From positions 5,891,001-5,955,000 of the forward strand of contig CANXME010002275.1 in assembly GCA_948144175.1 (NCBI GenBank): DNA of 64,000 bases, read 5' to 3'. Within the stretch, counting starts at the first letter, position 1, and the number at the start of each line of letters is the position of its first letter. Of this stretch, positions 1 through 64,000 are shown piece by piece. This DNA comes from Closterium sp. NIES-65 (taxonomy: Eukaryota; Streptophyta; Zygnematophyceae; Desmidiales; Closteriaceae). The notes below the pieces were generated by a model that was not told where the DNA came from, made no database searches, and saw only the letters and a list, made by a program, of their open reading frames with translations. Position numbers and translations under genes: made by a program.

Positions 1-1303
1 GCACTCGCTAGGCCCTTGTTCTTGCAATTTGCAGACGCTAGGCCCTTGTTCTTGCAGTTTTGTACACGCTAGGCCTTTGTTCTTGCAGTTTTGCACACGC
101 TAGGCACTTGTTCTTGCAGTTTTGCAAATGCTAGGCCCTTGTTCTTGCAGTTTTGCACACGCTAGGTCCTTGTTCTTGTAGCTTTGCATTCGCTAGGCCC
201 TTGTTCTTGCAGTTTTTCACACGCTAGGCCCTTGTTCTTGCAATTTTGAACACGCTAGGCCCTTGTTCTTGCAATATTGCACACGCTAGGCCCTTGTTCT
301 TGCAATATTGCACACGCTAGGCCCTTGTTCTTGCAATATTGCACACGCTAGGCCCTTGTTCTTGCAATATTGCACACGATAGGCCCTTGTTCTTGCAAAT
401 TTGCACACGCTAGGCCCTTGTTCTTGCAATTTTGCACACGCTAGGCCCTTGTTCTTGCTATTTTGCACATGCTAGGCCCTTGTTCTTGCAATTTTGCACT
501 CGCTAGGCCCTTGTTCTTGCAGTTTTGCACTCGCTAGGCCCTTGTTCTTGCAATTTTGCACACGCTAGGCCCTTGTTCTTGCAATTTTGCACATGCTAGG
601 CCCTTGTTCTTGCAATTTTGCACATGCTAGGCCCTTGTTCTTGCAGTTTTGCATTCGCTAGGCCCTTGTTCTTGCTATTTTGCACACGCTAGGCCCTTGT
701 TATTGCAATTTTGCACATGCTAGGCCCTTGTTCTTGCAATTTTGCACACGCTAGGCTCTTGTACTTGCAGTTTTGCACTCGCTAGGCCCTTGTTCTTGCA
801 ATTTTGCACACGCTAGGCCCTTGTTCTTGCAATTTTGCACACGCTAGGCTCTTGTTCTTGCAATTTTGCACTCGCTAAGCCCTTGTTCTTGCAGTTTTAC
901 ACTCGCTAGGCCCTTGTTCTTGCAATTTTGCACACACTAGGCCCTTGTTCTTGCAATTTTGCACACGCTAGGCCCGTTATTCTTGAAATTTTGCACATGC
1001 TAGGCCCTTGTTCTTGCAATTTTGCACATGCTAGGCCCATGTTCTTGTTATTTTGCACATGCTAGGCCCTTGTTCTTGCAATTTTGCACACGCTAGGCCC
1101 TTGTTTTTGCAATTTTGCACATCCTAGGCCCTTGTTCTTGCAATTTTGCACTCACTAGGCCCTTGTTCTTGCAGTTTTGCACTCGTTAGGCCCTTGTTCT
1201 TGCAATTTTGCACACGCTAGGCCCTTGTTCTTGCAATTTTGCTCACGCCAGGCCCTTGTTCTTGCAATTTTGCACACGCTAGGACCTTGTTCTTGCTATT
1301 TTG

Positions 1304-1437
1304 CACGTGCTAGGCCATTGTTCTTGCTATTTTGCACGTGCTAGGCCCTTGTTCTTGCAATATTGCACACGCTAGGCCCTTGTTCTTGCAATATTGCACA
1401 CGCTAGGCCCTTGTTCTGGCAATATTGCACATGCTAG
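1304..1437 (+). repeat. Marker module: CACGTG pair followed by AATATT palindromes
   Basis: Two adjacent monomers carry the palindrome GCACGTGC (CACGTG at 1,304-1,309 and 1,335-1,340). Three monomers follow with the 12-bp perfect palindrome TGCAATATTGCA. The same order recurs near 6,450, 10,917, 14,421, 17,260 (first CACGTG degraded to AACGTG), 18,760, 22,350, 25,950, 27,066 (three CACGTG monomers), 28,215, 30,198, 31,437, 33,421, 34,660, 37,540 and 43,180. Single-CACGTG versions occur at 47,129, 51,489, 52,575, 54,496 and 55,395. A monomer with GTCC and TGTAG usually follows in the right half of this range. It is a useful anchor for defining the higher-order unit. CACGTG is an E-box core, but no regulatory role is shown. 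Confidence 0.75.
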
Positions 1438-1729
1438 GCCTTTGTTCTTGCAGTTTTGCACACGCTAGGCCCTCGTTCTTGCAATTTTGCACACGCTAGG
1501 CCCTTGTTCTTGAATTTTTGCACACGCTAGGCACTTGTTCTTGCAATATTGCACACGCTAGGCCCTTGTTCTTGCACTTTAGCTCACGTTACGCCTTTCT
1601 TCTTGCAGTTTTGCACACGCTAGGCCCTTGTTCTTGCAGTTTTGCACACGCTAGGCACTTGTTCTTGCAGTTTTGCACAAGCTAGGCCCTTGTTATTGCA
1701 GTTTTGCACACGCTAGGCCCTTGTTCTTG

Positions 1730-3154
1730 CCGTTTTGCACTCGCTAGGCCCTTGTTCTTGCAATTTGCACACGCTAGGCCCTTGTTCTTGCAATTTTGCA
1801 CACGCTAGGCCCTTGTTCTTGCAGTTTTGCACACGCTAGGCACTTGTTCTTGCAGTTTTGTACACGCTAGGCCCTTGTTCTTGCAGTTTTGCACACGCTA
1901 GGCACTTGTTCTTGCAGTTTTGCAAATGCTAGGCCCTTGTTCTTGCAGTTTTTCACATGCTAGGTCCTCGTTCTTGTAGTTTTGCATTCGCTAGGCCCTT
2001 GTTCTTGCAGTTTTGCACACCCTAGGCCCTCGTTCTTGCAATTTTGAACACGCTAGGCCCTTGTTCTTGCAATATTGCACACGCTAGGCCCTTGTTCTTG
2101 CATTATTGCACACGCTAGGCCCTTGTTCTTGCAATATTGCACACGCTAGGCCCTTGTTCTTGCAATATTGCACACGATAGGCCCTTGTTCTTGCAATTTT
2201 GCACATGCTAGGCCCTTGTTCTTGCAATTTTGCACACGCTAGGCCCTTGTTCTTGCTATTTTGCACATGCTAGGCCCTTGTTCTTTCAATTTTGCACTCG
2301 CTAGGCCCTTGTTCTTGCAGTTTTGCACTCGCTAGGCCCTTGTTCTTGCAATTTTGCACACGCTAGGCCTTTGTTCTTGCAATTTTGCACAAGCTAGGCC
2401 CTTGTTCTTGCAATTTTGCACATGCTAGGCACTTGTTCTTGCAGTTTTGCATTCGCTAGGCCCTTGTTCTTGCAATTTTGCACATCCTAGGCCCTTGTTC
2501 TTGCAATTTTGCACTCACTAGGACCTTGTTCTTGCAGTTTTGCACTCGTTAGGCCCTTGTTCTTGCAATTTTGCACACACTAGGCCCTTGTTCTTGCAAT
2601 TTTGCTCACGCCAGGCCCTTGTTCTTGCAATTTTGCACACGCAAGGCCCTTGTTCTTGCTATTTTGAACGTGCTAGGCCCTTGTTCTTGCTATTTTGCAC
2701 TTGCTAGGCCCTTGTTCTTGCAATATTGCGCACGCTAGGCCCTTGTTCTTGCAATATTGCACACGCTAGGCCCTTGTTCTTGCAATATTGCACACGCTAG
2801 GCCCTTGTTCTTGCTATTTTGCACATGCTAGGCCCTTGTTCTTGCAATTTTGCACTCGCTAGGCCCTTGTTCTTGCAGTTTTGCATTCGCTAGGCCCTTG
2901 TTCTTGCGGTTTTGCACACGCTAGGCCCTTGTTCTTGCGATTTTGCACACTCTAGGCCCTTGTTCTTGCTATTTTGCACAAGCTAGGCCCTTTTTCTTGC
3001 TATTTTGCACATGCTAGGCCCTTGTTCGTTCAATTTTGCACACGCTAGGCCCTTGTTCTTGCTATTTTGCACACGCTAGGCCCTTGTTCTTGCAATATTG
3101 CACACGCTAGGCCCTTGTTCTTGCATTATTGCACACGCTAGGCCCTTGTTCTTG
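1730..3154 (+). repeat. 46-monomer HOR unit (1,425 bp), left block copy
   Basis: The rare monomer CCGTTTTGCACTCG occurs at 1,730 and again at 3,155, exactly 1,425 bp later. That is 46 x 31 minus 1, explained by one 30-bp monomer. The sequence after 3,155 repeats the sequence after 1,730 until the 3,466 breakpoint, so a second copy starts here but is cut off. The same unit is expanded at 14.8-19.2 kb. Confidence 0.85.
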
Positions 3155-3466
3155 CCGTTTTGCACTCGCTAGGCCCTTGTTCTTGCAATTTGCACACGCT
3201 AGGCCCTTGTTCTTGCAATTTTGCACACGCTAGGCCCTTGTTCTTGCAGTTTTGCACACGCTAGGCACTTGTTCTTGCAGTTTTGTACACGCTAGGCCCT
3301 TGTTCTTGCAGTTTTGCACACGCTAGGCACTTGTTCTTGCAGTTTTGCAAATGCTAGGCCCTTGTTCTTGCAGTTTTTCACATGCTAGGTCCTCGTTCTT
3401 GTAGTTTTGCATTCGCTAGGCCGTTGTTCTTGCAGTTTTGCACACCCTAGGCCCTCGTTCTTGCAA

Positions 3467-5253
3467 TTTTGCACACGCTCGGCCCTTCTTCTTGCAATTT
3501 TGCACACGCTAGGCCCTTGTTCTTGCAATTTTGCACACGCTAGGCCCTTGTTCTTGCACTTATGCACACGCTAGGCCCTTGTTCTTGCAGTTTTGCATAC
3601 GCTAGGCACTTGTTCTTTTAGTTTTACACAAGCTAGGCCCTTGTTCTTGCAGATTTGTACACGCTAGGCCCTTCTTCTTGCAATTTTGCACCCGCTAGGC
3701 CCTTGTTCTTGCAATTTGCACACGCTAGGCCCTTGTTCTTGCAGTTTTGTACACGCTAGGCCCTTGTTCTTGTCGTTTTGCACACGCTAGGCACTTGTTC
3801 TTGCAGTTTTGCACATGCTAGGCACTTGTTCTTGCAGATTTGCACACGCTAGGTCCTTGTTCTTGCAATTTTGCACACGCTAGGCCCTAGTTCTTGCAAT
3901 ATTGCACACGCTAGGCCCTTGTTCTTGCAATATTGCACACGCTAGGCCCTTGTTCTTCCAATATTGCACACGCTAGGCCCTTGTTCTTTCAATATTGCAC
4001 ACGCTAGGCCCTTGTTCTTGCAATTTTGCACACGCTAGGCCCTTGTTCTTGCAATTCTGCACACGCTAGGCCCTTGTTCTTGCTATTTACACATTCTAGG
4101 CCCTTGTTCTTGCAATTTTGCACTCGCTAGGCCCTTGTTCTTGCAGTTTTGCACTCGCTAGGCCCTTGTTCTTGCAATTTTGCACACGCTAGGCCCTTGT
4201 TCTTGCAATTTTGCACACGCTAGGCCCTTGTTCTTGCAATTTTGCACATGCTAGGCCCTTGTTCTTGCAGTTTCGCATTCGCTAGGCCCTTGTTCTTGCT
4301 ATTTTGCACAGACTAGGCCCTTGTTCTTGCAATTTTGCAGACGCTAGGCCCTTGTTCTTGCAATTTTGCACATGCTAGGCCCTTGTTCTTGCAATTTTAC
4401 ACTCGCTAGGCCCTTGTTCTTGCAGTTTTGCACTCGCTAGGCCCTTGTTCTTGCAATTTTGCACACGCTAGGCCCTTGTTCTTGCAATTTTGCACACGCT
4501 AGGCCCTTGTTCTTGCAATTTTGCACTCGCTAGGCCCTTGCTCTTGCAGTTTTGCACTCGCTAGGCCCTTGTTCTTGCAATTTTGCACACGCTAGGCCCT
4601 TGTTCTTGCAATTTTGCACACGCTAGGCCCTTGTTCTTGACATTTTGCACATGCTAGGCCCTTGTTCTTGCAATTTTGCACATGCTAGGCCCTTGTTCTT
4701 GCTATTTTGCACACGCTAGGCCCTTGCTCTCGCAATTTTGCACACGCTAGGCCCTTGTTCTTGCAATTTTGCACTCGCTAGGCCCTTGTTCTTGCAATTT
4801 TGCACATGCTAGGCCCTTGTTCTTGCAATTTTGCACTCGCTAGGCCCTTGTTCTTGCAATTTTGCACATGCTAGGCCCTTGTTCTTGCAATTTTGCACTC
4901 GCTAGGCCCTTGTTCTTGCAGTTTTGCACTCGTTAGGCCCTTGTTCTTGCAATTTTGCACACGCTAGGCCCTTGTTCTTGCAATTTTGCACACGCTAGGC
5001 CCTTGTTTTTGCAATTTTGCACACCCCTTGTTCTTGCTATTTTGCACAAGCTAGGCCCTTTTTCTTGCTATTTTGCACATGCTAGGCCCTTGTTCTTGCA
5101 ATATTGCACACGCTCGGTCCTTGTTCTTGCAATTTTGCACACGCTAGGCCCTTGATCTTGCAATTTTGCACACGCTAGGCCGTTGTTCCTGCAATTTTGC
5201 ACACGCTAGGCCCTTGTTCTTGCAATATTGCACACGCTAGGCCCTTGTTCTTG
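3467..5253 (+). repeat. 1.79-kb block, copy 1 (matches 7,115-8,901)
   Basis: Offset to the second copy is 3,648 bp. Shared rare variants include a TTATGCAC monomer at about 3,559 and 7,207, the 30-bp CTATTTACACATTC monomer at about 4,083 and 7,732, TTGACATTTTGCAC at about 4,637 and 8,286, and a 25-bp monomer (GCACACCCCTTG) at about 5,019 and 8,667. The few differences seen are single bases, such as CTCGCAATTTT against CTTGCAATTTT near 4,728 and 8,376. The match ends at a TATTTTGCAAACGTTAG monomer here and a CAGTTTT monomer in the other copy. Confidence 0.85.
5017..5041 (+). repeat. 25-bp truncated monomer (6-bp GCTAGG deletion)
   Basis: The run GCACACCCCTTGTTCTTG lacks the six bases GCTAGG normally found between GCACAC and CCCTTG. 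The same deletion monomer appears near 8,667, 9,157, 11,755, 12,524, 19,665, 20,455 and 24,024, always inside blocks that match by other markers. It is therefore an inherited tag of block copying and not a repeated independent deletion. Confidence 0.85.
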
Positions 5254-6660
5254 CTATTTTGCAAACGTTAGGCCCTTGTTCTTGGAATTTTGCACAGGCT
5301 AGGCCCTTGTTCTTGCAATTTTGCACACGCTAGGCCCTTCTTCTTGCAATTTTGCACACGCTAGGCCCTTGTTCTTGCAATTTTGCACACGCTAGGCCCT
5401 TGTTCTTGCAAATTTGCACACGCTAGGCCCTTGTTCTTGCAAGTTTGCACATGCTAGGCCCTTGTTCTTGCTATTTTGCACATGCTAGTCCCTTGTTCTT
5501 GCAATTTTGCACTCGCTAGGCCCTTGTTCTTGCAGTTTTGCACTCGCTAGGCCCTTGTTCTTGCAATTGTGCACACGCTAGGCCCTTGTTCTTGCAATTT
5601 TGCACACGCTAGGCCCTTGTTCTTGCAATTTTCCACATGCTAGGCCCTTGTTCTTGCAGTTTTGCATTCGCTAGGCCCTTGTTCTTGCTATTTTGCACAC
5701 GCTAGGCCCTTGTTCTTGCAATTTTGCACACGCTAGGCCCTTGTTCTTGCAATTTTGCACATGCTAGGCCCTTGTTCTTGCAATTTTGCACTCCCTAGGC
5801 CCTTGTTCTTGCAGTTTTGCACTCGCTAGGCCCTTGTTCTTGCAATTGTGCACACGCTAGGCCCTTGTTCTTGCAATTTTGCACACGCTAGGCCCTTGTT
5901 CTTGCAATTTTGCACTCGCTAGGACCTTGTTCTTGCAGTTTTGCACTCGCTAGGCCCTTGTTTTTGCAATTTTGCACACGCTAGGCCCTTTTCTTGCAAT
6001 TTTGCACACGCTAGGCCCTTGTTCTTGAATTTTTGCACATGCTAGGCCCTTGTTCTTGCAATTTTGCACATGCTAGGCCCATGTTCTTGTTATTTTACAC
6101 ACGCTAGGCCCTTGTTCTTGCAATTTTGCACTCGCTAGGCCCTTCTTCTTGCAATTTTGCACATGCTAGGCCCTTGTTCTTGCAATTTTGCACACGCTAA
6201 GCCCTTGTTCTTGCAATTTGCACATGCTAGGCCCTTGTTCTTGCAGTTTTGCACACGCAAGGCCCTTGTTCTTGCAATTTTGCACATCCTAGGCCCTTGT
6301 TCTTGCAATTTTGCACTCACTAGGCCCTTGTTCTTGCAGTTTTGTACTCGTTAGGCCCTTGTTCTTGCAATTTTGCTCACGCCAGACCCTTGTTCTTGCA
6401 ATTTTGCACAGGCAAGGCCCTTGTTCTTGCTATTTTGCACGTGCTAGGCCCTTGTTCTTGCTATTTTGCACGTGCTGGGCCCTTGTTCTTGCAATATTGC
6501 TCACGCTAGGCCCTTGTTCTTGCAATATTGCACACGCTCGGCCCTTGTTCTTGCAATATTGCACACGCTGAGCCCTTGTTCTTGCTATTTTGCACACGTT
6601 AGGCCCTTGTTCTTGCAATTTTGCACACGCTAGGCCCTTGTTCTTGCAATTTTGCACACG
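5254..6660 (+). repeat. Mosaic block related to 9,392-11,030
   Basis: The monomer series starting TATTTTGCAAACGTTAG and CTTGGAATTTTGC matches 9,392 onward at offset 4,138. After about 5,500 the offset becomes 4,510, because the right copy gained 12 monomers (372 bp). Shared markers are CAATTGTGCAC at 5,564 and 10,074, the 29-bp monomer CCCTTTTCTTGC near 5,989 and 10,497, and CATGTTCTTGTTATTTTACAC near 6,081 and 10,590. About two monomers near 6,170-6,230 are missing from the right copy. Confidence 0.75.
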
Positions 6661-7070
6661 CTAGGCCCTTCTTCTTGCAATTTTGCACACGCTAGGCCCT
6701 TGTTCTTGCAATTTTGCACACGCTAGGCCCTTCTTCTTGCAATTTTGCACACGCTCGGCCCTTCTTCTTGCAATTTTGCACACGCTAGGCCCTTCTTCTT
6801 GCTATTTTGCACAAGCTAGGCCCATTTTCTTGCTATTTTGCACATGCTAGGCCCTTGTTTTTGCAATTTTGCATACGCTAGGCCTTTGTTCTTGCAATAT
6901 TGCACACGCTCGGCCCTTGTTCTTGCAATATTGCACACGCTGAGCCCTTGTTCTTGCTATTTTGCACACGTTAGGCCCTTGTTCTTGCAATTTTGCACAC
7001 GCTAGGCCCTTGTTCTTGCAATTTTGCACACGCTAGGCCCTTCTTCTTGCAATTTTGCACATGCTAGGCC
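6516..7070 (+). repeat. 12-monomer (372-bp) local duplication
   Basis: The rare monomer pair GCTCGGCCC and GCTGAGCCC on an AATATT background occurs with its TGAGCCC at 6,569 and again at 6,941. The spacing is 372 bp, exactly 12 x 31. The flanking GTTAGGCCC monomer repeats in step too. The two copies cover roughly 6,516-6,700 and 6,888-7,070. Confidence 0.8.
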
Positions 7071-7114
7071 CTTGTTCTTGCAATTTTGCACACGCTAGGC
7101 CCTTCTTCTTGCAA

Positions 7115-8901
7115 TTTTGCACACGCTCGGCCCTTCTTCTTGCAATTTTGCACACGCTAGGCCCTTGTTCTTGCAATTTTGCACACGCTAGGCCCTTGTT
7201 CTTGCACTTATGCACACGCTAGGCCCTTGTTCTTGCAGTTTTGCATACGCTAGGCACTTGTTCTTTTAGTTTTACACAAGCTAGGCCCTTGTTCTTGCAG
7301 TTTTGTACACGCTAGGCCCTTCTTCTTGCAATTTTGCACCCGCTAGGCCCTTGTTCTTGCAATTTGCACACGCTAGGCCCTTGTTCTTGCAGTTTTGTAC
7401 ACGCTAGGCCCTTGTTCTTGTCGTTTTGCACACGCTAGGCACTTGTTCTTGCAGTTTTGCACATGCTAGGCCCTTGTTCTTGCAGATTTGCACACGCTAG
7501 GTCCTCGTTCTTGCAATTTTGCACACGCTAGGCCCTAGTTCTTGCAATATTGCACACGCTAGGCCCTTGTTCTTGCAATATTGCACACGCTAGGCCCTTG
7601 TTCTTCCAATATTGCACACGCTAGGCCCTTGTTCTTTCAATATTGCACACGCTAGGCCCTTGTTCTTGCAATTTTGCACACGCTAGGCCCTTGTTCTTGC
7701 AATTCTGCACACGCTAGGCCCTTGTTCTTGCTATTTACACATTCTAGGCCCTTGTTCTTGCAATTTTGCACTCGCTAGGCCCTTGTTCTTGCAGTTTTGC
7801 ACTCGCTAGGCCCTTGTTCTTGCAATTTTGCACACGCTAGGCCCTTGTTCTTGCAATTTTGCACACGCTAGGCCCTTGTTCTTGCAATTTTGCACATGCT
7901 AGGCCCTTGTTCTTGCAGTTTTGCATTCGCTAGGCCCTTGTTCTTGCTATTTTGCACAGACTAGGCCCTTGTTCTTGCAATTTTGCAGACGCTAGGCCCT
8001 TGTTCTTGCAATTTTGCACATGCTAGGCCCTTGTTCTTGCAATTTTACACTCGCTAGGCCCTTGTTCTTGCAGTTTTGCACTCGCTAGGCCCTTGTTCTT
8101 GCAATTTTGCACACGCTAGGCCCTTGTTCTTGCAATTTTACACACGCTAGGCCCTTGTTCTTGCAATTTTGCACTCGCTAGGCCCTTGCTCTTGCAGTTT
8201 TGCACTCGCTAGGCCCTTGTTCTTGCAATTTTGCACACGCTAGGCCCTTGTTCTTGCAATTTTGCACACGCTAGGCCCTTGTTCTTGACATTTTGCACAT
8301 GCTAGGCCCTTGTTCTTGCAATTTTGCACATGCTAGGCCCTTGTTCTTGCTATTTTGCACACGCTAGGCCCTTGCTCTTGCAATTTTGCACACGCTAGGC
8401 CCTTGTTCTTGCAATTTTGCACTCGCTAGGCCCTTGTTCTTGCAATTTTGCACATGCTAGGCCCTTGTTCTTGCAATTTTGCACTCGCTAGGCCCTTGTT
8501 CTTGCAATTTTGCACATGCTAGGCCCTTGTTCTTGCAATTTTGCACTCGCTAGGCCCTTGTTCTTGCAGTTTTGCACTCGTTAGGCCCTTGTTCTTGCAA
8601 TTTTGCACACGCTAGGCCCTTGTTCTTGCAATTTTGCACACGCTAGGCCCTTGTTTTTGCAATTTTGCACACCCCTTGTTCTTGCTATTTTGCACAAGCT
8701 AGGCCCTTTTTCTTGCTATTTTGCACATGCTAGGCCCTTGTTCTTGCAATATTGCACACGCTCGGCCCTTGTTCTTGCAATTTTGCACACGCTAGGCCCT
8801 TGATCTTGCAATTTTGCACACGCTAGGCCGTTGTTCTTGCAATTTTGCACACGCTAGGCCCTTGTTCTTGCAATATTGCACACGCTAGGCCCTTGTTCTT
8901 G
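7115..8901 (+). repeat. 1.79-kb block, copy 2 (matches 3,467-5,253)
   Basis: Same order of variants as 3,467-5,253, shifted by 3,648 bp, including the 30-bp and 25-bp length variants. Part of this copy (about 8,175-8,545) has been copied again to about 9,651-10,021 at offset 1,476, as shown by GCTCTTGCAG at 8,188 and 9,664 and by GACATTTTGC at 8,287 and 9,763. Confidence 0.85.
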
Positions 8902-9391
8902 CAGTTTTGCACACGCTAGGCCCTTGTTCTTGCAATTTTGCACATGCTAGGCCCTTGTTCTTGCAATTTTGCACTCGCTAGGCCCTTGTTCTTGCAATTT
9001 TGCACATGCTAGGCCCTTGTTCTTGCAATTTTGCACTCGCTAGGCCCTTGTTCTTGCAGTTTTGCACTCGTTAGGCCCTTGTTCTTGCAATTTTGCACAC
9101 GCTAGGCCCTTGTTCTTGCAATTTTGCACACGCTAGGCCCTTGTTTTTGCAATTTTGCACACCCCTTGTTCTTGCTATTTTGCACAAGCTAGGCCCTTTT
9201 TCTTGCTATTTTGCACATGCTAGGCCCTTGTTCTTGCAATATTGCACACGCTCGGCCCTTGTTCTTGCAATTTTGCACACGCTAGGCCCTTGATCTTGCA
9301 ATTTTGCACACGCTAGGCCGTTGTTCTTGCAATTTTGCACACGCTAGGCCCTTGTTCTTGCAATATTGCACACGCTAGGCCCTTGTTCTTG
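8424..9391 (+). repeat. 490-bp tandem duplication carrying the 25-bp monomer
   Basis: Positions 8,424-8,901 repeat at 8,914-9,391 with a period of 490 bp. This equals fifteen 31-bp monomers plus one 25-bp monomer, so the odd length is fully accounted for. No differences were noticed between the two copies, which suggests a recent event. The block at 4.5-5.25 kb has only one copy of this stretch. Confidence 0.88.
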
Positions 9392-11030
9392 CTATTTTGC
9401 AAACGTTAGGCCCTTGTTCTTGGAATTTTGCACACGCTAGGCCCTTGTTCTTGCAATTTTGCACACGCTAGGCCCTTCTTCTTGCAATTTTGCACACGCT
9501 AGGCCCTTGTTCTTGCAATTTTGCACACGGTAGGCCCTTGTTCTTGCAAATTTGCACACGCTAGGCCCTTGTTCTTGCAAGTTTGCACATGCTAGGCCCT
9601 TGTTCTTGCTATTTTGCACATGCTAGGCCCTTGTTCTTGCAATTTTGCACTCGCTAGGCCCTTGCTCTTGCAGTTTTGCACTCGCTAGGCCCTTGTTCTT
9701 GCAATTTTGCACACGCTAGGCCCTTGTTCTTGCAATTTTGCACACGCTAGGCCCTTGTTCTTGACATTTTGCACATGCTAGGCCCTTGTTCTTGCAATTT
9801 TGCACATGCTAGGCCCTTGTTCTTGCTATTTTGCACACGCTAGGCCCTTGCTCTTGCAATTTTGCACACGCTAGGCCCTTGTTCTTGCAATTTTGCACTC
9901 GCTAGGCCCTTGTTCTTGCAATTTTGCACATGCTAGGCCCTTGTTCTTGCAATTTTGCACTCGCTAGGCCCTTGTTCTTGCAATTTTGCACATGCTAGGC
10001 CCTTGTTCTTGCAATTTTGCACTCGCTAGGCCCTTGTTCTTGCAGTTTTGCACTCGCTAGGCCCTTGTTCTTGCAATTGTGCACACGCTAGGCCCTTGTT
10101 CTTGCAATTTTGCACACGCTAGGCCCTTGTTCTTGCAATTTTGCACATGCTAGGCCCTTGTTCTTGCAATTTTGCATTCGCTAGGCCCTTGTTCTTGCTA
10201 TTTTGCACACGCTAGGCCCTTGTTCTTGCAATTTTGCACACGCTAGGCCCTTGTTCTTGCAATTTTGCACATGCTAGGCCCTTGTTCTTGCAATTTTGCA
10301 CTCCCTAGGCCCTTGTTCTTGCAGTTTTGCACTCGCTAGGCCCTTGTTCTTGCAATTGTGCACACGCTAGGCCCTTGTTCTTGCAATTTTGCACACGCTA
10401 GGCCCTTGTTCTTGCAATTTTGCACTCGCTAGGACCTTGTTCTTGCAGTTTTGCACTCGCTAGGCCCTTGTTTTTGCAATTTTGCACACGCTAGGCCCTT
10501 TTCTTGCAATTTTGCACACGCTAGGCCCTTGTTCTTGAATTTTTGCACATGCTAGGCCCTTGTTCTTGCAATTTTGCACATGCTAGGCCCATGTTCTTGT
10601 TATTTTACACACGCTAGGCCCTTGTTCTTGCAATTTTGCACTCGCTAGGCCCTTCTTCTTCCAATTTGCACATGCTAGGCCCTTGTTCTTGCAGTTTTGC
10701 ACACGCAAGGCCCTTGTTCTTGCAATTTTGCACATCCTAGGCCCTTGTTCTTGCAATTTTGCACTCACTAGGCCCTTGTTCTTGCAGTTTTGCACTCGTT
10801 AGGCCCTTGTTCTTGCAATTTTGCACACGCTAGGCCCTTGTTCTTGCAATTTTGCTCACGCCAGACCCTTGTTCTTGCAATTTTGCACACGCAAGGCCCT
10901 TGTTCTTGCTATTTTGCACGTGCTAGGCCCTTGTTCTTGCTATTTTGCACGTGCTAGGCCCTTGTTCTTGCAATATTGCTCACGCTAGGCCCTTGTTCTT
11001 GCAATATTGCACACGCTAGGCCCTTGTTCT
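9392..11030 (+). repeat. Mosaic block, right copy of 5,254-6,520
   Basis: It begins with TATTTTGCAAACGTTAG as at 5,254. It then contains a 12-monomer insertion relative to that block, derived from 8,175-8,545. After about 10,040 it resumes the 5,530 series at offset 4,510. A CCAATTTGCACATG monomer near 10,670 marks the site where about two monomers are absent compared with 6,155-6,230. The end holds a CACGTG pair (10,917 and 10,948) and two AATATT monomers. Confidence 0.75.
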
Positions 11031-16100: not shown

Positions 16101-16612
16101 GGCCCTTGTTCTTGCTATTTTGCACAAGCTAGGCCCTTTTTCTTGCTATTTTGCACATGCTAGGCCCTTGTTCGTTCAATTTTGCACACGCTAGGCCCTT
16201 GTTCTTGCTATTTTGCACACGCTAGGCCCTTGTTCTTGCAATATTGCACACGCTAGGCCCTTGTTCTTGCATTATTGCACACGCTAGGCCCTTGTTCTTG
16301 CCGTTTTGCACTCGCTAGGCCCTTGTTCTTGCAATTTGCACACGCTAGGCCCTTGTTCTTGCAATTTTGCACACGCTAGGCCCTTGTTCTTGCAGTTTTG
16401 CACACGCTAGGCACTTGTTCTTGCAGTTTTGTACACGCTAGGCCCTTGTTCTTGCAGTTTTGCACACGCTAGGCACTTGTTCTTGCAGTTTTGCAAATGC
16501 TAGGCCCTTGTTCTTGCAGTTTTTCACATGCTAGGTCCTCGTTCTTGTAGTTTTGCATTCGCTAGGCCGTTGTTCTTGCAGTTTTGCACACCCTAGGCCC
16601 TCGTTCTTGCAA
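13117..16612 (+). repeat. Segmental copy A2 of the 3.5-kb block
   Basis: This is the right copy of 1-3,466, in the same variant order with one added 30-bp monomer at about 14,871-14,900. Its first 1.7 kb also matches 21,048-22,780 at offset 7,931, with more substitutions there. It is directly preceded by the 11-13.1 kb block, so A1 at the window start probably has the same neighbour outside the window. Confidence 0.85.
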
Positions 16613-26500: not shown

Positions 26501-27130
26501 GTTTTGTACACGCTAGGCCCTTGTTCTTGCAGTTTTGCACACGCTAGGCACTTGTTCTTGCAGTTTTGCAAATGCTAGGCCCTTGTTCTTGCAGTTTTGC
26601 ACACGCTAGGTCCTCGTTCTTGTAGTTTTGCATTCGCTAGGCCCTTGTTCTTGCAGTTTTGCACACCCTAGGCCCTCGTTCTTGCAATTTTTGAACACGC
26701 TAGGCCCTTGTTCTTGCAATATTGCACACGCTAGGCCCTTGTTCTTGCACTATTGCACACGCTAGGCCCTTGTTCTTGCAATATTGCACAGGCTAGGCAC
26801 TTGTTCTTGCAATATTGCACACGATAGGCCCTTGTTCTTGCAATTTTGCACATGCTAGGCCCTTGTTCTTGCAATTTTGCACATGCTAGGCCCTTGTTCT
26901 TGCAATTTTGCACACGCTAGGCCCTTGTTCTTGCTATTTTGCACATGCTAGGCCCTTGTTCTTTCAATTTTGCACTCGCTAGGCCCTTGTTCTTGCAGTT
27001 TTGCACTCGCTAGGCCCTTGTTCTTGCAATTTCGCACACGCTAGGCCCTTGTTCTTGCTATTTTGCACGTGCTAGGCCCTTGTTCTTGCTATTTTGCACG
27101 TGCTAGGCCCTTGTTCTTGCTATTTTGCAC
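23550..27130 (+). repeat. 3.57-kb HOR unit, second copy
   Basis: It follows the 19,981-23,549 unit in marker order, with indels of single monomers. Private changes include GCGCGCTAGG near 26,262, a 1-bp expansion (CAATTTTTGAAC near 26,690), and GTTTGGCC near 26,234. It ends with three consecutive CACGTG monomers (27,066, 27,097 and 27,128), where other modules have two. Confidence 0.8.
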
Positions 27131-34970: not shown

Positions 34971-35111
34971 TACGCTAGGCCCTTGTTCTTGCAAATTTGC
35001 ACACGCTAGGCCCTTGTTCTTGCAATTTTGCACGCGCTAGGCACTTGTTCTTGCTATTTTGCACGTGCTAGGCCCTGGTTCTTGCAATTTTGCACATGCT
35101 AGGCCCTTGTT

Positions 35112-53900: not shown

Positions 53901-56442
53901 ATTTTGCACACGCTAGGCCCTTGTTCTTAAAAGTTTGCACATGCTAGGCCCGTGTTCTTGCTATTTTGCACACGCTAGGCCCTTGTTCTTCCAATTTTGC
54001 ACACGCTAGGCCCTTGTTCTTGAAATTGCGCACTCGCTAGGCCCTTGTTCTTGAAATTTTGCACACGCTATGCTCTTGTTCTTGCAATTTTGCACACGCT
54101 AGGCCCTTGTTCTTGCAATTTTGTACTCGCTAGGCCCTTGTTCTTGCAATTTTGCACATGCTAGGCCCTTGTTCTTGCAATTTTGCACATGCCTGGCCCA
54201 TGTTTTTGTTATTTTGCACACGCTTGGCCCTTGTTCTTGCAATTTTGCACACGCTAGGCCCTTGTTCTTGCAATTTTGCACATCCTAGGCAATTGTTCTT
54301 GCAATTTTGCACTCACTAGGCCCTTGTTCTTGCAGTTTTGCACTCGTTAGGCCCTTGTTCTTGCAATTTTGCACACGCTAGGCCCTTGTTCTTGCAACTT
54401 TGCACACGCTAGGCCCTTGTTCTTGCAATTTTGCACACGCTAGGCCCTTTTTCTTGCTATTTTGCACATGCTAGGCCCTTGTTCTTGCTATTTTGCACGT
54501 GCTAGGCCCTTGTTCTTGCAATATTGCACATGCTAGGCCCTTGTTCTTGCAATATTGCACACGCTAGGTCCTTGTTCTTGTAGTTTTGCATTCTTAGGCC
54601 CTTGTTCTTGCAGTTTTGCACACGCTAGGCCCTCGTTCTTGCAACTTTGCACACGCTAGGCCCTTGTTCTTGCAATATTGCACACGCTAGGCCCTTGTTC
54701 TTGCAATATTGCACACGCTAGGCCCTTGTTCTTGCAATATTGCATACGCTAGGCCCTTGTTCTTGCAATTTTGCACACACTAGGCCCTTGTTCTTGCAAT
54801 TGTGCACACGCTAGGCACTTGTTCTTGCTATTTTGCACGTGCTAGGCCCTGGTTCTTGCAATTTTGCACACGCTAGGCCCTTGTTCTTGCAATTTTGCAC
54901 ACGCTAGGCCCTTGATCTTGCAATTTTGCACTCGCTAGGCCCTTGTTCTTGCAGTTTTGCACTTGCTTGGCCCTTGTTCTTGCAGTTTTGCACACGCTAG
55001 GCCCTTCTTCTTGCAATTTTGCACTCGCTAGGCCCTTGTTCTTGCAATTTTGCACACGCTAGGCCCTTGTTCTTGCAATTTTGCACTCGCTAGGCCCATG
55101 TTCTTGCTATTTTGCACACGCTAGGCCCTTGTTCTTGCTATTTTGCACTCGCTAGGCCCTTATTCTTGCTATTTTGCACACGCTAGGCCCTTGTTCTTGC
55201 AATTGTGCACACGCTAGGCCCTTGTTCTTGCAATTTTGCACACGCTAAGCCCTTGTTCTAGCTATTTTGCACACGCTAGGCCCTTGTTCTTGCAATTTTG
55301 CACATGCTAGGCCCTTGTTCTTGCAATTTTGCACACGCTAGGACCCTTTTCTTGCTATTTTGCACATGCTAGGCCCTTGTTCTTGCTATTTTGCACGTGC
55401 TAGGCCCTTGTTCTTGCAATATTGCACACGCTAGGCCCTTGTTCTTGCAATATTGCACACGCTAGGTCCTTGTTCTTGTAGTTTTGCATTCGTTAGGCCC
55501 TTGTTCTTGCAGTTTTGCACACGCTAGGCCCTCTTTCTCGCAATTTTGCACATGCTAGGCCCTTGTTCTTGCAATATTGCACACGCTAGGCCCTTGTTCT
55601 TGCAATATTGCACACGCTAGGCCCTTGTTCTTGCAATATTGCATACGCTAGGCCCTTGTTCTTGCAATTTTGCACACGCTAGGCCCTTGTTCTTGCAATT
55701 TTGCACGCGCTAGGCACTTGTTCTTGCTATTTTGCACGTGCTAGGCCCTGGTTCTTGCAATTTTGCACATGCTAGGCCCTTGTTCTTGCAATTTTGCACT
55801 CGCTAGGCCCTTGTTCTTGCAGTTTTGCACTCACTAGGCCCTTGTTCTTGCAATTTTGCACACGCTAGGCCCTTGTTCTTGCAATTTTGCACACGCTAGG
55901 CCATTGATCTTGCAATTTTGCACTCGCTAGGCCCTTGTTCTTGCAGTTTTGCACTCGCTTGGCCCTTGTACTTGCGGTTTTGCACACGCTAGGCCCTTCT
56001 GCTTGCGATTTTGCACTCGCTAGGCCCTTGTTCTTGCAATTTTGCACACGCTAGGCCCTTGTTCTTGCAATTTTGCACTCGCTAGGCCCATGTTCTTGCT
56101 ATTTTGCACACGCTAGGCCCTTGTTCTTGCAATTTTGCACTCGCTAGGCCCTTATTCTTGCTATTTTGCACACGCTAGGCCCTTGTTCTTGCAATTGTGC
56201 ACACGCTAGGCCCTTGTTCTTGCAATTTTGCACACGCTAAGCTCTTGTTCTAGCTATTTTGCACACGCTAGGCCCTTGTTCTTGCAATTTTGCACTCGCT
56301 AGGCCCATGTTCTTGCTATTTTGCACACGCTAGGCCCTTGTCCTTGCTATTTTGCACTCGCTAGGCCCTTATTCTTGCTTGTTTGCACACGCTAGGCCCT
56401 TGTTCTTGCAATTTTGCACACGCTAGGCCCTTGTTCTTCCAA
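50978..56442 (+). repeat. Module series spaced 35, 62 and 29 monomers
   Basis: The marker AGGTCCTTGTTCTTGTAG lies at 51,558, 52,644, 54,566 and 55,464. The spacings are 1,086 bp (35 monomers plus 1, from CCATGGATC near 52,121), 1,922 bp (62 monomers) and 898 bp (29 monomers minus 1, from GCATTCTTAGG near 54,590). Each marker follows one CACGTG monomer and two AATATT monomers and precedes a CTCG-type monomer and AATATT monomers ending in CATACG. Substitutions between modules are more frequent than in the 28-46 kb duplications. This is the last stretch with AATATT, CACGTG and TGTAG monomers. Confidence 0.82.
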
Positions 56443-57926
56443 TTTTGCACTCGCTAGGCCCATGTTCTTGCTATTTTGCACACGCTAGGCCCTTGTTCTT
56501 GCAATTTTGCACTCGCTAGGCCCTTATTCTTGCTATTTTGCACACGCTAGGCCCTTGTTCTTGCAATTGTGCACACGCTAGGCCCTTGTTCTTGCAATTT
56601 TGCACACGCTAAGCCCTTGTTCTAGCTATTTTGCACACGCTAGGCCCTTGTTCTTGCAATTTTGCACTCGCTAGGCCCATGTTCTTGCTATTTTGCACAC
56701 GCTAGGCCCTTGTTCTTGCTTTTTTGCACTCGCTAGGCCCATATTCTTGCTTGTTTGCACACGCTAGGCCCTTGTTCTTGCAATTTTGCACACGCTAGGC
56801 CCTTGTTCTTCCAATTTTGCACTCACTAGGCCCTTGTTCTTGCAATTTTGCACACGCTAGGCCCTTGTTCTTGCTATTTTGCACACGCTAATCTCTATTC
56901 TTGCTATTTTGCACACACTAGGCCCTTGTTCTTAAAATTTGCACATGCTAGGCCCGTGTTCTTGCTGTTTTGCACACGCTAGGCCCTTGTTCTTCCAATT
57001 TTGCACACGAAAGGCCCTTGTTCTTGAAATTCCGCACTCGCTAGGCCCTTGTTCTTGAAATTTTACACACGCTAGGCCCTTGTTCTTGCAATTTTGCAAA
57101 CGCTAGGCCCTTGTTCTTGCAATTTTGCACTCGCTAGGCCCTTGTTCATGCAATTTTGCACACGCTAGGCCCTTGTTCTTGCAATTTTGCACTCGCTAGG
57201 CCCATGTTCTTGCTATTTTGCACACGCTAGGCCCTTGTTCTTGCAATTTTGCACTCGCTAGGCCCTTATTCTTGCTATTTTGCACACGCTAGGCCCTTGT
57301 TCTTGCAATTGTGCACACGCTAGGCCCTTGTTCTTGCTATTTTGCACACGCTAAGCCCTTGTTCTAGCTATTTTGCACACGCTAGGCCCTTGTTCTTGCA
57401 ATTTTGCACTCGCTAGGCCCATGTTCTTGCTATTTTGCACACGCTAGGCCCTTGTTCTTGCTTTTTTGCACTCGCTAGGCCCATATTCTTGCTTGTTTGC
57501 ACACGCTAGGCCCTTGTTCTTGCAATTTTGCACACGCTAGGCCCTTGTTCTTCCAATTTTGCACTCACTAGGCCCTTGTTCTTGCAATTTTGCACACGCT
57601 AGGCCCTTGTTCTTGCTATTTTGCACACGCTAATCTCTATTCTTGCTATTTTGCACACACTAGGCCCTTGTTCTTAAAATTTGCACATGCTAGGCCCGTG
57701 TTCTTGCTGTTTTGCACACGCTAGGCCCTTGTTCTTCCAATTTTGCACACGAAAGGCCCTTGTTCTTGAAATTCCGCACTCGCTAGGCCCTTGTTCTTGA
57801 AATTTTACACACGCTAGGCCCTTGTTCTTGCAATTTTGCAAACGCTAGGCCCTTGTTCTTGCAATTTTGCACTCGCTAGGCCCTTGTTCTTGCAATTTTG
57901 CACACGCTAGGCCCTTGTTCTTGCAA
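56443..57926 (+). repeat. 742-bp (24-monomer) tandem pair
   Basis: TAATCTCTAT lies at 56,889 and 57,631, 742 bp apart. That is 24 x 31 minus 2, with one base lost in TAATCTCTATTC and one in CTTAAAATTTGC. The pair shares CTTGCTTTTTTGC, CATATTCTTGCTTG, GAAAGGCCC and AATTCCGCACTCG monomers. A diverged third version follows at about 57,927-58,480, with CGATAGGCCC and TAATCCCTTG and a 2-bp shorter GCACACTAGGCCC near 58,270. This 24-monomer unit has different variants from the 744-bp unit. Confidence 0.88.
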
Positions 57927-58379
57927 TTGTGCACACGCTAGGCCCTTGTTCTTGCAAGTTTGCACACGCTAAGCCCTTGTTCTAGCTATTTTGCACACGC
58001 TAGGCCCTTGTTGTGTCAATTTTGCACTCGCTAGGCCCATGTTCTTGCTATTTTGCACACGCTAGGCCCTTACTCTTGCTATTTTGCACTCGCTGGGCCC
58101 TTTTTCTTGCTTGTTTGCACACGCTAGGCCCTTGTTCTTGCAATTTTGCACACGCTAGGCCCTTGTTCTTCCAATTTTGCACTCGCTAGGCCCTTGTTCT
58201 TGCAATTTTGCACACGCTAGGCCCTTGTTCTTGCTATTTTGCACACGCTAATCCCTTGTTCTTGCTATTTTGCACACTAGGCCCTTGTTCTTAAACTTTT
58301 GCACATGCTAGGCCCGTGTTCTTCCTATTTTGCACACGCTAGGCCCTTGTTCTTCCAATTTTGCACACGATAGGCCCTT

Positions 58380-58875
58380 GTTCTTGAAATTCCGCACTCG
58401 CTAGGCCCTTGTTCTTGAAATTTTACACACGCTAGGCCCTTGTTCTTGCAATTTTACACACGCTAGGCCCTTGTTCTTGCAATTTTGCACTCGCTAGGCC
58501 CTTATTCTTGCTATTTTGCATACGCTAGGCCCTTGTTCTTGCAATTGTGCACACGCTAGGCCCTTGTTCTTGCAATTTTGCACACGCTAAGCCCTTGTTC
58601 TAGCTATTTTGCACACGCTAGGCCCTTGTTCTTGAAATTCCGCACTCGCTAGGCCCTTGTTCTTGAAATTTTACACACGCTAGGCCCTTGTTCTTGCAAT
58701 TTTGCACACGCTAGGCCCTTGTTCTTGCAATTTTGCACTCGCTAGGCCCTTATTCTTGCTATTTTGCATACGCTAGGCCCTTGTTCTTGCAATTGTGCAC
58801 ACGCTAGGCCCTTGTTCTTGCAATTTTGCACACGCTAAGCCCTTGTTCTAGCTATTTTGCACACGCTAGGCCCTT
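58380..58875 (+). repeat. 8-monomer (248-bp) tandem duplication
   Basis: CTTATTCTTG at 58,501 recurs at 58,749, exactly 248 bp (8 x 31) later. The AATTCCGCACTCG and AATTTTACACACG monomers before it repeat in step. The copies run roughly 58,380-58,627 and 58,628-58,875. Confidence 0.82.
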
Positions 58876-61800
58876 GTTCTTGCAATTTTGCACTCGCTAG
58901 GCCCTTGTTCTTGCAATTTTGCACACGCTAGGCCCTTGTTCTTGCAATTTTGCACTCGCTAGGCCCATGTTTTTGCTATTTTGCACACGCTAGGCCCTTG
59001 TTCTTGCTATTTTGCACTCGCTAGGCCCTTATTCTTGCTATTTTGCATACGCTAGGCCCTTGTTCTTGCAATTGTGCACACGCTAGGCCCTTGTTCTTGC
59101 AATTTTGCACACGCTAAGCCCTTGTTCTAGCTATTTTGCACACGCTAGGCCCTTGTTCTTGCAATTTTGCACTCGCTAGGCCCATGTTCTTGCTATTTTG
59201 CACACGCTAGGCCCTTGTTCTTGCTATTTTGCACTCGCTAGACCCTTGTTCTTCCAATTTTGCACTTGCTAGGCCCTTGTTCTTCCAATTTTGCACACGC
59301 TAGGCCCTTGTTCTTGCTATTTTGCACACGCTAGGCCCTTGTTCTTAAAAGTTTGCACATGCTAGGCCCGTGTTCTTGCTATTTTGCACACGCTAGGCCC
59401 TTGTTCTTCCAATTTTGCACACGCTAGGCCCTTGTTCTTGAAATTGCGCACTCGTTAGGCTCTTGTTCTTGAAATTTTGCACACGCTATGCTCTTGTTCT
59501 TGCAATTTTGCACACGCTAGGCCCTTGTTCTTGCAATTTTGTACTCGCTAGGCCCTTGTTCTTGCAATTTTGCACACGCTAGGCCCTTGTTCTTGCAATT
59601 TTGCAAACGCTAGGCCCTTGTTCTTGCAATTTTGCACTCGCTAGGCCCTTGTTCTTGCAATTTTGCACTTGCTAGGCCCTTGTTCTTGGAATTTTGCACA
59701 CGCTAGGCCCTTGTTCTTGAAATGTTGCACACGCTAGGCCCTTCTTCTCCCTTTTTTGCACATGCTAGGCCCTTGTTCTAGCTATTTTGCACACGCTAGG
59801 CCCTTGTTCTTCCAATTTTACACACGATAGGCCCTTGTTCTTGAAATTCCGCACTCGCTAGGCCCATGTTCTTGAAATTTTACACACGCTAGGCCCTTGT
59901 TCTTGCAATTTTGCAGACGCTAGGCCCTTGTTCTTGCAATTGTGCACACGCTAGGCCCTTGTTCTTGCAATTTTGCACACGCTAAGCCCTTGTTCTAGCA
60001 ATTTTGCACACGCTAGGCTCTTGTTCTTGCAATTTTGCACTCGCTAGGCCCATGTTCTTGCTATTTTGCACACGCTAGGCCCTTGTTCTTGCTATTTTGC
60101 ACACGCTAGGCCCTTGTTCTTCCAATTTTTCACTCGCTAGGCCCTTGTTCTTGCAATTTTGCACACGCTAGGCCCTTGTTCTTGCTATTTTGCACACGCG
60201 AATCCCTTGTTCTTGCTATTTTGCACACGCTAGGCCCTTGTTCTTAAAATTTTGCACATGCTAGGCCCGTGTTCTTGCTATTTTGCACACGCTAGGCCCT
60301 TGTTCTTCCAATTTTGCACACTATAGGCCCTTGTTCTTGAAATTCCGCACTCACTAGGCCCTTGTTCTTGAAATTTTACACACGCTAGGCCCTTGTTCTT
60401 GCAATTTTGCACACGCTAGGCCCTTGTTCTTGCAATTTTGCACTCGCTAGGCCCTTGTTCTTGCAATTTTGCACACGGTAGGCCCTTGTTCTTGCAATTT
60501 TGCACACGCTAGGCCCTTGTTCTTGCAATTTTGCACACGCTAGGCCCTTGTTCTTGCAATTTTGCACTCGCTAGGCCCTTATTCTTGCTATTTTGCATAC
60601 GCTAGGCCCTTGTTCTTGCAATTGTGCACACGCTAGGCCCTTGTTCTTGCAATTTTGCACACGCTAAGCCCTTGTTCTAGCTATTTTGCACACGCTAGGC
60701 CCTTGTTCTTGCAATTTTGCACTCGCTAGGCCCTTGTTCTTGCAATTTTGCACACGCTAGGCCCTTGTTCTTTCAATTTTGCACTCGCTAGGCCCATGTT
60801 TTTGCTATTTTGCACACGCTAGGCCCTTGTTCTTGCTATTTTGCACTCGCTAGGCCCTTATTGTTGCTATTTTGCATACGCTAGGCCCTTGTTCTTGCAA
60901 TTGTGCACACGCTAGGCCCTTGTTCTTGCAATTTTGCACACGCTAAGCCCTTGTTCTAGCTATTTTGCACACGCTAGGCCCTTGTTCTTGCAATTTTGCA
61001 CTCGCTAGGCCCATGTTCTTGCTATTTTGCACACGCTAGGCCCTTGTTCTTGCTATTTTGCACTCGCTAGACCCTTGTTCTTCCAATTTTGCACTTGCTA
61101 GGCCCTTGTTCTTCCAATTTTGCACACGCCAGGACCTTGTTCTTGCTATTTTGCACACGCTAGGCCCTTGTTCTTAAAAGTTTGCACATGCTAGGCCCGT
61201 GTTCTTGCTATTTTGCACACGCTAGGCCCTTGTTCTTCCAATTTTGCACACGCTAGGCCCTTGTTCTTGAAATTGCGCACTCGTTAGGCTCTTATTCTTG
61301 AAATTTTGCACACGCTATGCTCTTGTTCTTGCAATTTTGCACACGCTAGGCCCTTGTTCTTGCAATTTTGTACTCGCTAGGCCCTTGTTCTTGCAATTTT
61401 GCACACGCTAGGCCCTTGTTCTTGCAATTTTGCAAACGCTAGGCCCTTGTTCTTGCAATTTTGCACTCGCTAGGCCCTTGTTCTTGCAATTTTGCACTTG
61501 CTAGGCCCTTGTTCTTGGAATTTTGCACACGCTCGGCCCTTGTTCTTGAAATGTTGCACACGCTAGGCCCTTGTTCTCCCTTTTTTGCACATGCTAGGCC
61601 CTTGTTCTAGCTATTTTGCACACGCTAGGCCCTTGTTCTTCCAATTTTACACACGATAGGCCCTTGTTCTTGAAATTCCGCACTCGCTAGGCCCTTGTTC
61701 TTGAAATTTTACACACGCTAGGCCCTTGTTCTTGCAATTTTGCAGACGCTAGGCCCTTGTTCTTGCAATTGTGCACACGCTAGGCCCTTGTTCTTGCAAT

Positions 61801-62362
61801 TTTGCACACGCTAAGCCCTTGTTCTAGCAATTTTGCACACGCTAGGCTCTTGTTCTTGCAATTTTGCACTCGCTAGGCCCATGTTCTTGCTATTTTGCAC
61901 ACGCTAGGCCCTTGTTCTTGCTATTTTGCACACGCTAGGCCCTTGTTCTTCCAACTTTTCACTCGCTAGGCCCTTGTTCTTGCAATTTTGCACACGCTAG
62001 GCCCTTGTTCTTGCTATTTTGCACACGCGAATCCCTTGTTCTTGCTATTTTGCACACGCTAGGCCCTTGTTCTTAAAATTTTGCACATGCTAGGCCCGTG
62101 TTCTTGCTATTTTGCACACGCTAGGCCCTTGTTCTTCCAATTTTGCACACTATAGGCCCTTGTTCTTGAAATTCCGCACTCACTAGGCCCTTGTTCTTGA
62201 AATTTTACACACGCTAGGCCCTTGTTCTTGCAATTTTGCACACGCTAGGCCCTTGTTCTTGCAATTTTGCACTCGCTAGGCCCTTGTTCTTGCAATTTTG
62301 CACACGGTAGGCCCTTGTTCTTGCAATTTTGCACACGCTAGGCCCTTGTTCTTGCAATTTTG
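58685..62362 (+). repeat. 1,829-bp (59-monomer) tandem pair
   Basis: GACCCTTGTTCTTCC starts at 59,241 and 61,070, 1,829 bp apart (59 x 31 exactly). The CTTCTCCC or GTTCTCCC pyrimidine-rich monomer (about 59,750 and 61,573), GCGAATCCC, CACTATAGG and CACGGTAGG repeat in step. Single-base differences are visible: CTTTCAATTTT at 60,769, TTATTGTTGC near 60,860, GCCAGGACC near 61,128, and CAACTTTTC near 61,952. Similarity ends near 62,362. The internal order of CCGCACTCG, TTTACACACG and CAATTGTGCAC monomers relates it to the 742-bp unit. Confidence 0.9.
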
Positions 62363-64000
62363 CACTCACTAGGCCCTTGTTCTTGCAATTTTGCACTCGC
62401 TAGGCCCTTGTTCTTGCAATTTTGCACACGCTAGGCCCTTGTTCTTGCAATTTTGCACTCGCTAGGCCCATGTTCTTGCTATTTTGCACACGCTAGGTTC
62501 TTGTTCTTGCTATTTTGCACACGCTAAGCTCTTGTTCTTAAAATTGTGCACATGCTAGGCCCGTGTTCTTGCTATTTTGCACACGCTAGGCCCTTGTTCT
62601 TCCAATTTTGCACACGCTAGGCCCTTGTTCTTGAAACTGCGCACTCGCTAGGCCCTTGTTTTTGAAATTTTGCAAACGCTATGCTTTTGTTCTTGCAATT
62701 TTGCACACGCTAGGCCCTTGTTCTTGCAATTTTAAACTCGCTAGGCCCTTGTTCTTGCAATTTTGCACACGCTAGGCCCTTGTTCTTGCAATTTTGCACA
62801 CGCTAGGCTCTTGTTCTTGCAATTTTGCACTCGCTAGGCCCTTGTTCTTGGAATTTTGCACACGCTAGGCCCTTGTTCTTGAAATGTTGCACACGCTAGG
62901 CCCTTCTTCTCCCTTTTTTGCACACGCTAGGCCCTTGTTCTTGCAATTTTGCACACGCTAGGCCCTTGTTCTTGCTATTTTGCACATGCTAGGCCCTTGT
63001 TCTTGCAATTTTGCACTCGCTAGGCCCATGTTCTTGCTAGTTTGCACACGCTAGGCCCTTGTTCTTGCTATTTTGCACTCGCTAGGCCCTTATTCTTGCT
63101 ATTTTGCACACACTAGGCCCTTTTTCTTGCAATTTTGCACTCGCTAGGCCCTTGTTCTTCCTATTTTGCACTCGCTAGGCCCTTGTTCTTGCAATTTTGC
63201 ACACACTAGGCCCTTGTTCTTGCTATTTTGCACACGCTAGGCCCTTGTTCTTAAAAATTTGCACATGCTAGGCCCATGTTCTTGCTATTTTGCACACGCT
63301 AGGCCCTTGTTCTTCCAATTTTGCACACGCTAGGCCCTTGTTCTTGAACTTGCGCACTCACTAGGCCCTTGTTCATGAAATTTTGCGCACGCTTTGCTCT
63401 TGTTCTTGCAATTTTGCACACGCTAGGCCCTTGTTCTTGCAATTTTGCACTCGCTAGGCCCTTGTTCTTGCAATTTTGCACACGCTAGGCACTTGTTCTT
63501 CCAATTTTGCACTCGCTAGGCCCTTGTTCTTGCAACTTTGCACACGATAGGCCCTTGTTCTCGCTATTTTGCACACACTAGGCCCTTGTTCTTGCTATTT
63601 TGCACATGATAGGCCCTTGTTCTTCCAGTTTTGCACACACTAGGCCCTTGTTCTTGAAATTTTGCACACGCTAGGCCCTTGTTCTTGCACTTTTGAACAC
63701 GCTAGGCACTTGTTTTTCCAATTTTGCAGTCGCCAGGCCCTTGTTCTTGCAATTTTGAACACACTAGGCCCTTGTTCTTCTAATTTTGCACATGCTAGAC
63801 CCTTGTTCTTGCTATTGTGCACACGTTGGGCCCTTGTTCCTCCAATTCTGCACTCGCTAGGCCCTTGTTCTTGAAATGTTGCACACGCTAGGCCCTTGTT
63901 CTTGCAATTTTGCGCACGCTAGGCCCTTGTTCTTCCAATTTTGCACATGTAGGCCCTTGTTCCTGAAATTTTGCACATGCTTGGCCCTTGTTCTTGAAAT
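62343..64000 (+). repeat. Degenerate monomers at the right end of the window
   Basis: The first part still follows the 59-monomer unit loosely (GCGCACTCG, CTATGC, CTCCCTTTTTTGC near 62,905). From about 63,300 the monomers vary more than elsewhere: GAACTTGCGC, GCTTTGCTC, TTTTTCCAATTTTGCAGTCG, CTTCTAATTTTGC, GTTGGGCCC, CCTCCAATTCTGC and a 30-bp GCACATGTAGG. No larger repeat period is obvious here. Higher divergence is typical of satellite edges, but the boundary is not in the window. Confidence 0.7.

Follow-up and report, generated by a model that had tools for sequence, protein, structure and literature searches.

A 31-bp satellite array with duplicated blocks of many sizes

The array and its monomer

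The window, the whole 64,000-nt stretch of DNA analysed here, is filled from end to end by a 31-bp satellite repeated head-to-tail (TRF: 2,065.9 copies, 89% matches). Parsing against the consensus CACACGCTAGGCCCTTGTTCTTGCAATTTTG yielded 2,067 pieces in 457 distinct strings with a mean identity of 0.937; the first parsed piece is a single base and the last is cut by the window end. The pieces were exactly 31 bp long in 2,016 cases, and lengths of 30 bp (n = 33), 25 bp (n = 8), 32 bp (n = 4) and 43 bp (n = 3) also occurred. The commonest monomer was present 309 times. Pairs of monomers across the array were separated by 3.41 differences on average, and neighbouring monomers by 3.13. No 12-mer of the consensus was found in reverse orientation in the window, nor did the monomer parse of the window find an insertion longer than 12 bp.

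A coding reading was rejected: the 76 closed ORFs of at least 60 aa, 60 of which lie on the minus strand and measure exactly 60 aa, were read as by-products of the repeat, and none is gene-like (the longest listed is 91 aa). The window yielded no tRNA genes and no Rfam match reaching the gathering score. Being long, head-to-tail, built from one short monomer and non-coding, the stretch is a satellite DNA array, and by its look probably one of eukaryote type. The exact 31-mer had no match in viral contigs and a 20-mer of the monomer had no exact match in prokaryote genome contigs, both collections being without eukaryote genomes. With 36000–38000 as the query, two plasmid records (best E ~2) and five phage records (E ~7) were returned, which we judged to be chance matches. 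Our literature search with the monomer letter strings and for 31-bp repeats found no description of this monomer.

At 12523–12590, 20454–20521 and 24023–24090, a 43-bp monomer (12-bp insertion) directly follows a 25-bp monomer (6-bp deletion), a combination that marks the older layer of copies listed below. A dyad, TGCAA-NN-TTGCA, lies across the monomer junction and is intact at 978 of 2,065 junctions; because about one-fifth of the monomers vary at columns 25 and 26 of the dyad, which are among the most variable columns, we claim no conserved role for it. The 4-kb blocks in 16001–20000 and 56001–64000 stand at a slightly greater distance from the remaining array than most blocks do.

Duplicated blocks and their spacings

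Different segments of the array have duplicated blocks of differing size, some nested within others, as the first-pass annotation had proposed and as chained alignments and lag segments confirmed. The blocks are named below by their length in monomers.

1..64000 (+): 31-bp satellite array, consensus CACACGCTAGGCCCTTGTTCTTGCAATTTTG
1..3471 (+): left copy of the pair at 424/425-monomer spacing (13,116/13,146 bp), truncated at the window start; 112 monomer pairs aligned with 1 difference and a single gap
3458..8902 (+): separated copies at 118-monomer (3,648 bp) spacing; 8 mismatches in 1,797 bp
8424..9392 (+): 16-monomer (490 bp) duplication; 479 bp identical
10731..27003 (+): older layer, lags of 253, 115–119 and 371–372 monomers; 1.1–1.8% differences, 105–154 monomer pairs
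13118..16617 (+): right copy of the pair at 13.1-kb spacing, overlapping the 46/49-mer units; chained monomer alignment
14888..19184 (+): 46/49-monomer units of 1,425 and 1,517 bp, about three in succession; lags 46, 49 and 95
28422..34970 (+): 104-monomer (3,223 bp) tandem duplication, 2.03 copies; 1 mismatch in 3,326 bp, 103-bp overlap
35111..46439 (+): two tandem copies of a 184-monomer block (5,703 bp); 181 monomer pairs aligned with 2 differences and a single gap
38471..40733 (+): first 24-monomer unit, 744 bp long, present about three times inside 184-mer copy 1; 49 monomers at lag 24, 0.84 identical
40511..41078 (+): weak partial 10-monomer (310 bp) copy of 258 bp, spanning the 184-mer duplication junction; 3 mismatches
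44112..46374 (+): the three units of the first 24-mer in 184-mer copy 2; 0–1 positions from their copy-1 counterparts, 2–9 among themselves
48641..50977 (+): 37-monomer (1,146/1,147 bp) tandem duplication, two copies; base-level match
56018..56824 (+): 12-monomer unit of 372 bp in 2.17 tandem copies, which overlap the second 24-mer; the 435-bp match has 5 mismatches
56407..57928 (+): second 24-monomer unit, 742 bp long, in 2.05 tandem copies; the 780-bp match has 3 mismatches
58371..58882 (+): 8-monomer unit of 248 bp in 2.06 tandem copies; the 264-bp match has 1 mismatch
58674..62365 (+): 59-monomer (1,829 bp) tandem duplication, 2.02 copies; 9 mismatches in 1,863 bp

The 16-mer and the 118-monomer spacing are new relative to the first-pass annotation. 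Over the 104-mer, 106 whole-monomer pairs showed zero differences. The 184-mer has a lag of 184 monomers at 35111–36398 that becomes 182 for 36400–40798; this is one duplication with a two-monomer indel, in that two monomers of copy 1 near 36394 have no counterpart in copy 2, through either a gain or a loss. In the 37-mer the offset is 1,147 bp for 48641–48742 (0 mismatches) and 1,146 bp for 48742–49831 (2 mismatches). In addition to the indels of 1–6 bp, by which period lengths had been reconciled with whole monomers, the 12-bp insertion of the 43-bp monomers shifts the lengths. The second 24-mer is no close copy of the first, and the nearest 24-mer elsewhere (at 35403) differs from it at 33 positions. 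The spacings of 13,116/13,146 and 7,900 bp are those of separated copies within the window.

We compared the window with itself base by base (match +1, mismatch –24; offsets 31–14,999) and with five shuffles of monomer order, whose largest values were 126–159. All 11 groups of offsets predicted to give diagonals exceeded the five shuffles, most by a wide margin. At short offsets the scores were 239 (248 bp), 310 (372 bp), 705 (742 bp) and 1,198 (744 bp), while 743 bp taken alone scored 70, below the shuffle maxima. Middle offsets scored 1,040 (1,146 bp), 1,356 (1,425 bp), 1,638 (1,829 bp), 3,301 (3,223 bp) and 984 (3,569 bp), and long ones 4,349 (5,641 bp), 1,288 (5,703 bp), 356 (7,900 bp), 1,771 (13,116 bp) and 1,730 (13,146 bp). 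Margins were smallest at 248, 372 and 7,900 bp. Strong diagonals that had not been listed before appeared at 3,648, 14,571, 16,088, 2,942, 1,517 and 7,931 bp. The shuffles are a slightly easy control, because shuffling removes the likeness of neighbouring monomers (3.13 vs 3.41 differences).

Typing by whole monomers gave 64 segments scoring at least 40, at 57 lags that include 24, 37, 46, 59, 104, 115, 182, 184, 255, 256, 424 and 425; in 20 shuffles scored in the same way no lag reached 40 (largest 25.2). Among the short lags, lag 12 scored 47.5, lag 8 scored 31.0, and lag 10 scored 22.7, within the shuffle range. The predicted units of 8 to 184 monomers held up as duplicated blocks, several of them nested, except that the 10-mer is weak: it covers 258 bp of a 310-bp unit, with a base-level score of 183 vs a shuffle maximum of 159. 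When lags were summed over the whole array, 20 shuffles reached identical fractions of up to 0.054 and scores of up to 0.22; lag 37 did not rise above them (fraction 0.042, score 0.21) and lags 8, 10 and 12 were absent from the top lists. Lags 8, 10, 12 and 37 are local units. The lag-12 segment found with whole monomers lies at 6531–7150, not at the 56-kb site found base by base; this second 12-monomer (372 bp) spacing is 8 monomers long with one difference. A lag of 266 in 46.5–56 kb was put aside as an assumed small-sample effect. Self-BLAST of the window returned a single non-self alignment (1,829-bp offset, 97.9%), and a chained alignment at monomer level was used in its place.

Copy number and order of copying

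By strict base scoring, the units of 8, 12, 16, 37, 46, 49, 59 and 104 monomers and the second 24-mer were present in 1.9–2.2 copies and the 10-mer in 1.8, and the pairs at 115, 118, 255 and 424/425 monomers were separated or incomplete. Above two copies were the first 24-mer, with about three units per 184-mer copy (3.04 by lag segments, 1.87 by strict base scoring), and the 46/49-mer, with about three. As described for TRASH, a higher-order repeat is two blocks that have the same number of monomers and similar monomers, a definition applied there to Arabidopsis CEN178 (PMC10199239). Judged by that definition, the blocks here are pairwise higher-order repeats. They do not form a classical multi-copy higher-order array, in which one unit recurs many times: the maximum within the window was about three copies. 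The ‘higher-order repeats’ of many sizes proposed by the first-pass annotation are an overstatement; they stand as pairwise blocks, mostly two-copy duplications.

The chained alignment contained 36 block pairs with up to 2% difference, together covering 80% of the window. Eight of the 36 differed by no more than 0.1% and covered 43% of the window, including the 184-mer, the 104-mer and the 424/425 pair. A middle group at 0.3–0.5% comprised the 46/49, 59 and 118 pairs. At lag 24, divergence was 0.73% for the first 24-mer and 0.15% for the second. The older layer, at 1.1–1.8%, sits beside younger copies at 0–0.5%. Units of the first 24-mer differ at 2–9 positions within one 184-mer copy and at 0–1 between counterparts across copies, which indicates that the 24-mer was tripled before the 184-mer was doubled; order read from divergence presumes even mutation rates and rare gene conversion. 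Compared across 40 monomers, the left copy at the 13.1-kb spacing differed from the first, second and third 46-mer units at 0, 5 and 1 positions, respectively. The history of copying, earlier described as readable, can thus be read in places, and with it part of the order of events.

Origin of the blocks and known systems

The array is very probably best accounted for by in-register copying of blocks between misaligned repeats, together with mutation and deletion. Blocks of ~8 to 184 monomers, perhaps more, would have been copied beside themselves when misaligned repeats exchanged in register, by unequal exchange or homology-using repair, and point mutations, small indels and deletions would have accrued alongside. 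Duplicated blocks, their shared register, their nesting and their differing divergences are all observed directly. With 2,016 of 2,067 pieces at exactly 31 bp, the copying kept register. Block copies come in many sizes, and the young ones are mostly adjacent. Five common variant sites were weakly linked, with a mean r2 of 0.02–0.04 up to 35 bp, 0.012 at 36–62 bp, ~0.006 at 63–248 bp and 0.0012 far apart; weak and fading linkage of this kind would follow from exchange anywhere along the monomer. Variant 26G showed positive linkage to 4T both within its own monomer and in the one that follows (r 0.30 each), as did 28A to 28A of the next monomer (r 0.54).

Of nine duplications, seven had junction overlaps of 103, 81, 63, 44, 38, 34 and 16 bp, and the other two were set to zero. 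This sample is a selected one: the 16- and 184-mers, without overlap (about –11 and –15), were those counted as zero, the 44 bp of the 37-mer was derived by hand across an indel, and the 10-mer, the first 24-mer, the 49-mer (–52, –95 and –124) and all separated pairs were omitted. Compared with random in-register breakpoints, in a null of 29,111 runs from which the 151 exceeding 300 bp were omitted, the mean overlap was 42 bp (P = 0.054) and the median 38 bp (P = 0.014; n = 9), which weakly supports homologous exchange. A first null based on exact runs (P 0.002–0.005, two longest) was dropped, as its scoring was unlike that of the data. Misaligned homologous exchange or repair probably made the blocks, and we regard it as the favoured rather than proven mechanism; unit size was probably not under selection. 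It is rather doubtful that the array goes further, holding large local duplications (up to 184, perhaps 425 monomers) that preferred sites at which misaligned repeats share matches several tens of bases long, in a 31-bp satellite undescribed before. If such a preference of overlap were true, the array would record the homology need of the exchange that made it.

Ordinary turnover produced similar arrays in simulations that combined random duplications and deletions, kept in register, with mutation, at freely chosen settings. The first 10 used different settings and diverged too far (pair distance 6.7–18.6) to match the real 3.41, and a second set was picked to come closer to the real array. 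Across 21 simulated arrays we counted 24–121 lags scoring at least 40 (real array 57), 319–825 distinct monomers (456), 128–586 occurrences of the commonest monomer (309) and mean pair distances of 2.3–4.8 (3.41). Nothing unusual is therefore required; with settings free, this indicates that ordinary turnover is able to produce the pattern, and does not show it to be the actual cause.

Alpha-satellite monomers of primates are 171 bp long, and in true higher-order arrays of the alpha-satellite kind every unit would be expanding toward many copies. The first 24-mer and the 46/49-mer, each at about three units, are what this would predict, but the remaining units are at about two copies or separated and no unit dominates the window, and we consider such expansion very unlikely. 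It is just as improbable that the youngest near-identical copies are products of the assembler from repeated reads. The 104-, 184- and 424/425-monomer pairs do resemble false duplications, differing at 0–0.06% over 3.3–5.7 kb; however, the two 184-mer copies differ by 2 substitutions as well as the two-monomer indel, those at the 13.1-kb spacing differ by a single substitution and a gap, and the remaining pairs show graded divergence up to 1.8%.

Placement of blocks without long homology, by excision and reinsertion of circles or by end joining at short matches, is also unlikely. Several close pairs lie 1.9 to 14.7 kb apart, the 16-mer and 184-mer junctions lack overlap, and the overlap test is weak; duplications in maize CentC are ascribed to alternative end joining (PMC4806543). 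Set against this, copies kept the 31-bp register and young ones are mostly adjacent, separated pairs can be adjacent blocks split by later deletion, and the 13.1-kb pair can be a unit extending beyond the window. Misaligned in-register copying remains our preferred account. The array is an ordinary satellite whose pattern of block duplication is real, partly readable and within ordinary repeat turnover: a clean example of satellite turnover, no exception. Long sequenced arrays of short monomers, in which single duplications can be read with relative ages and breakpoints, allow tests of such turnover.

Higher-order repeats of CentC in maize centromere 10 are described as segmental-duplication pairs, some adjacent, with differing ages from divergence (PMC4806543), and the array here likewise holds block duplications of differing age inside a satellite. 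CentC as described there has a longer monomer and retrotransposon insertions, whereas here the monomer is 31 bp and the blocks reach 184 monomers or more. Arabidopsis CEN178, from known centromeres, differs in its 178-bp monomer (PMC10199239). Likened by description, Chio1 and Chio2 of Chionographis japonica (23 and 28 bp) share with this array very short monomers, long arrays, dyad symmetry and a higher-order cluster; the Chio arrays, on which centromeric histone was demonstrated, mix orientations (PMC10264360), and the array here showed no reverse copy. Satellite I of cervids and bovids also has a 31-bp base unit, a likeness of length alone, and in the account of deer its 31-bp units are grouped into monomers of ~0.8–1 kb, whereas here the 31-bp unit is the monomer (PMC7288315). 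Finally, as in the cascading higher-order repeats described for alpha satellite (PMC11157248, PMC11050224), several related higher-order sizes occur here in one array.
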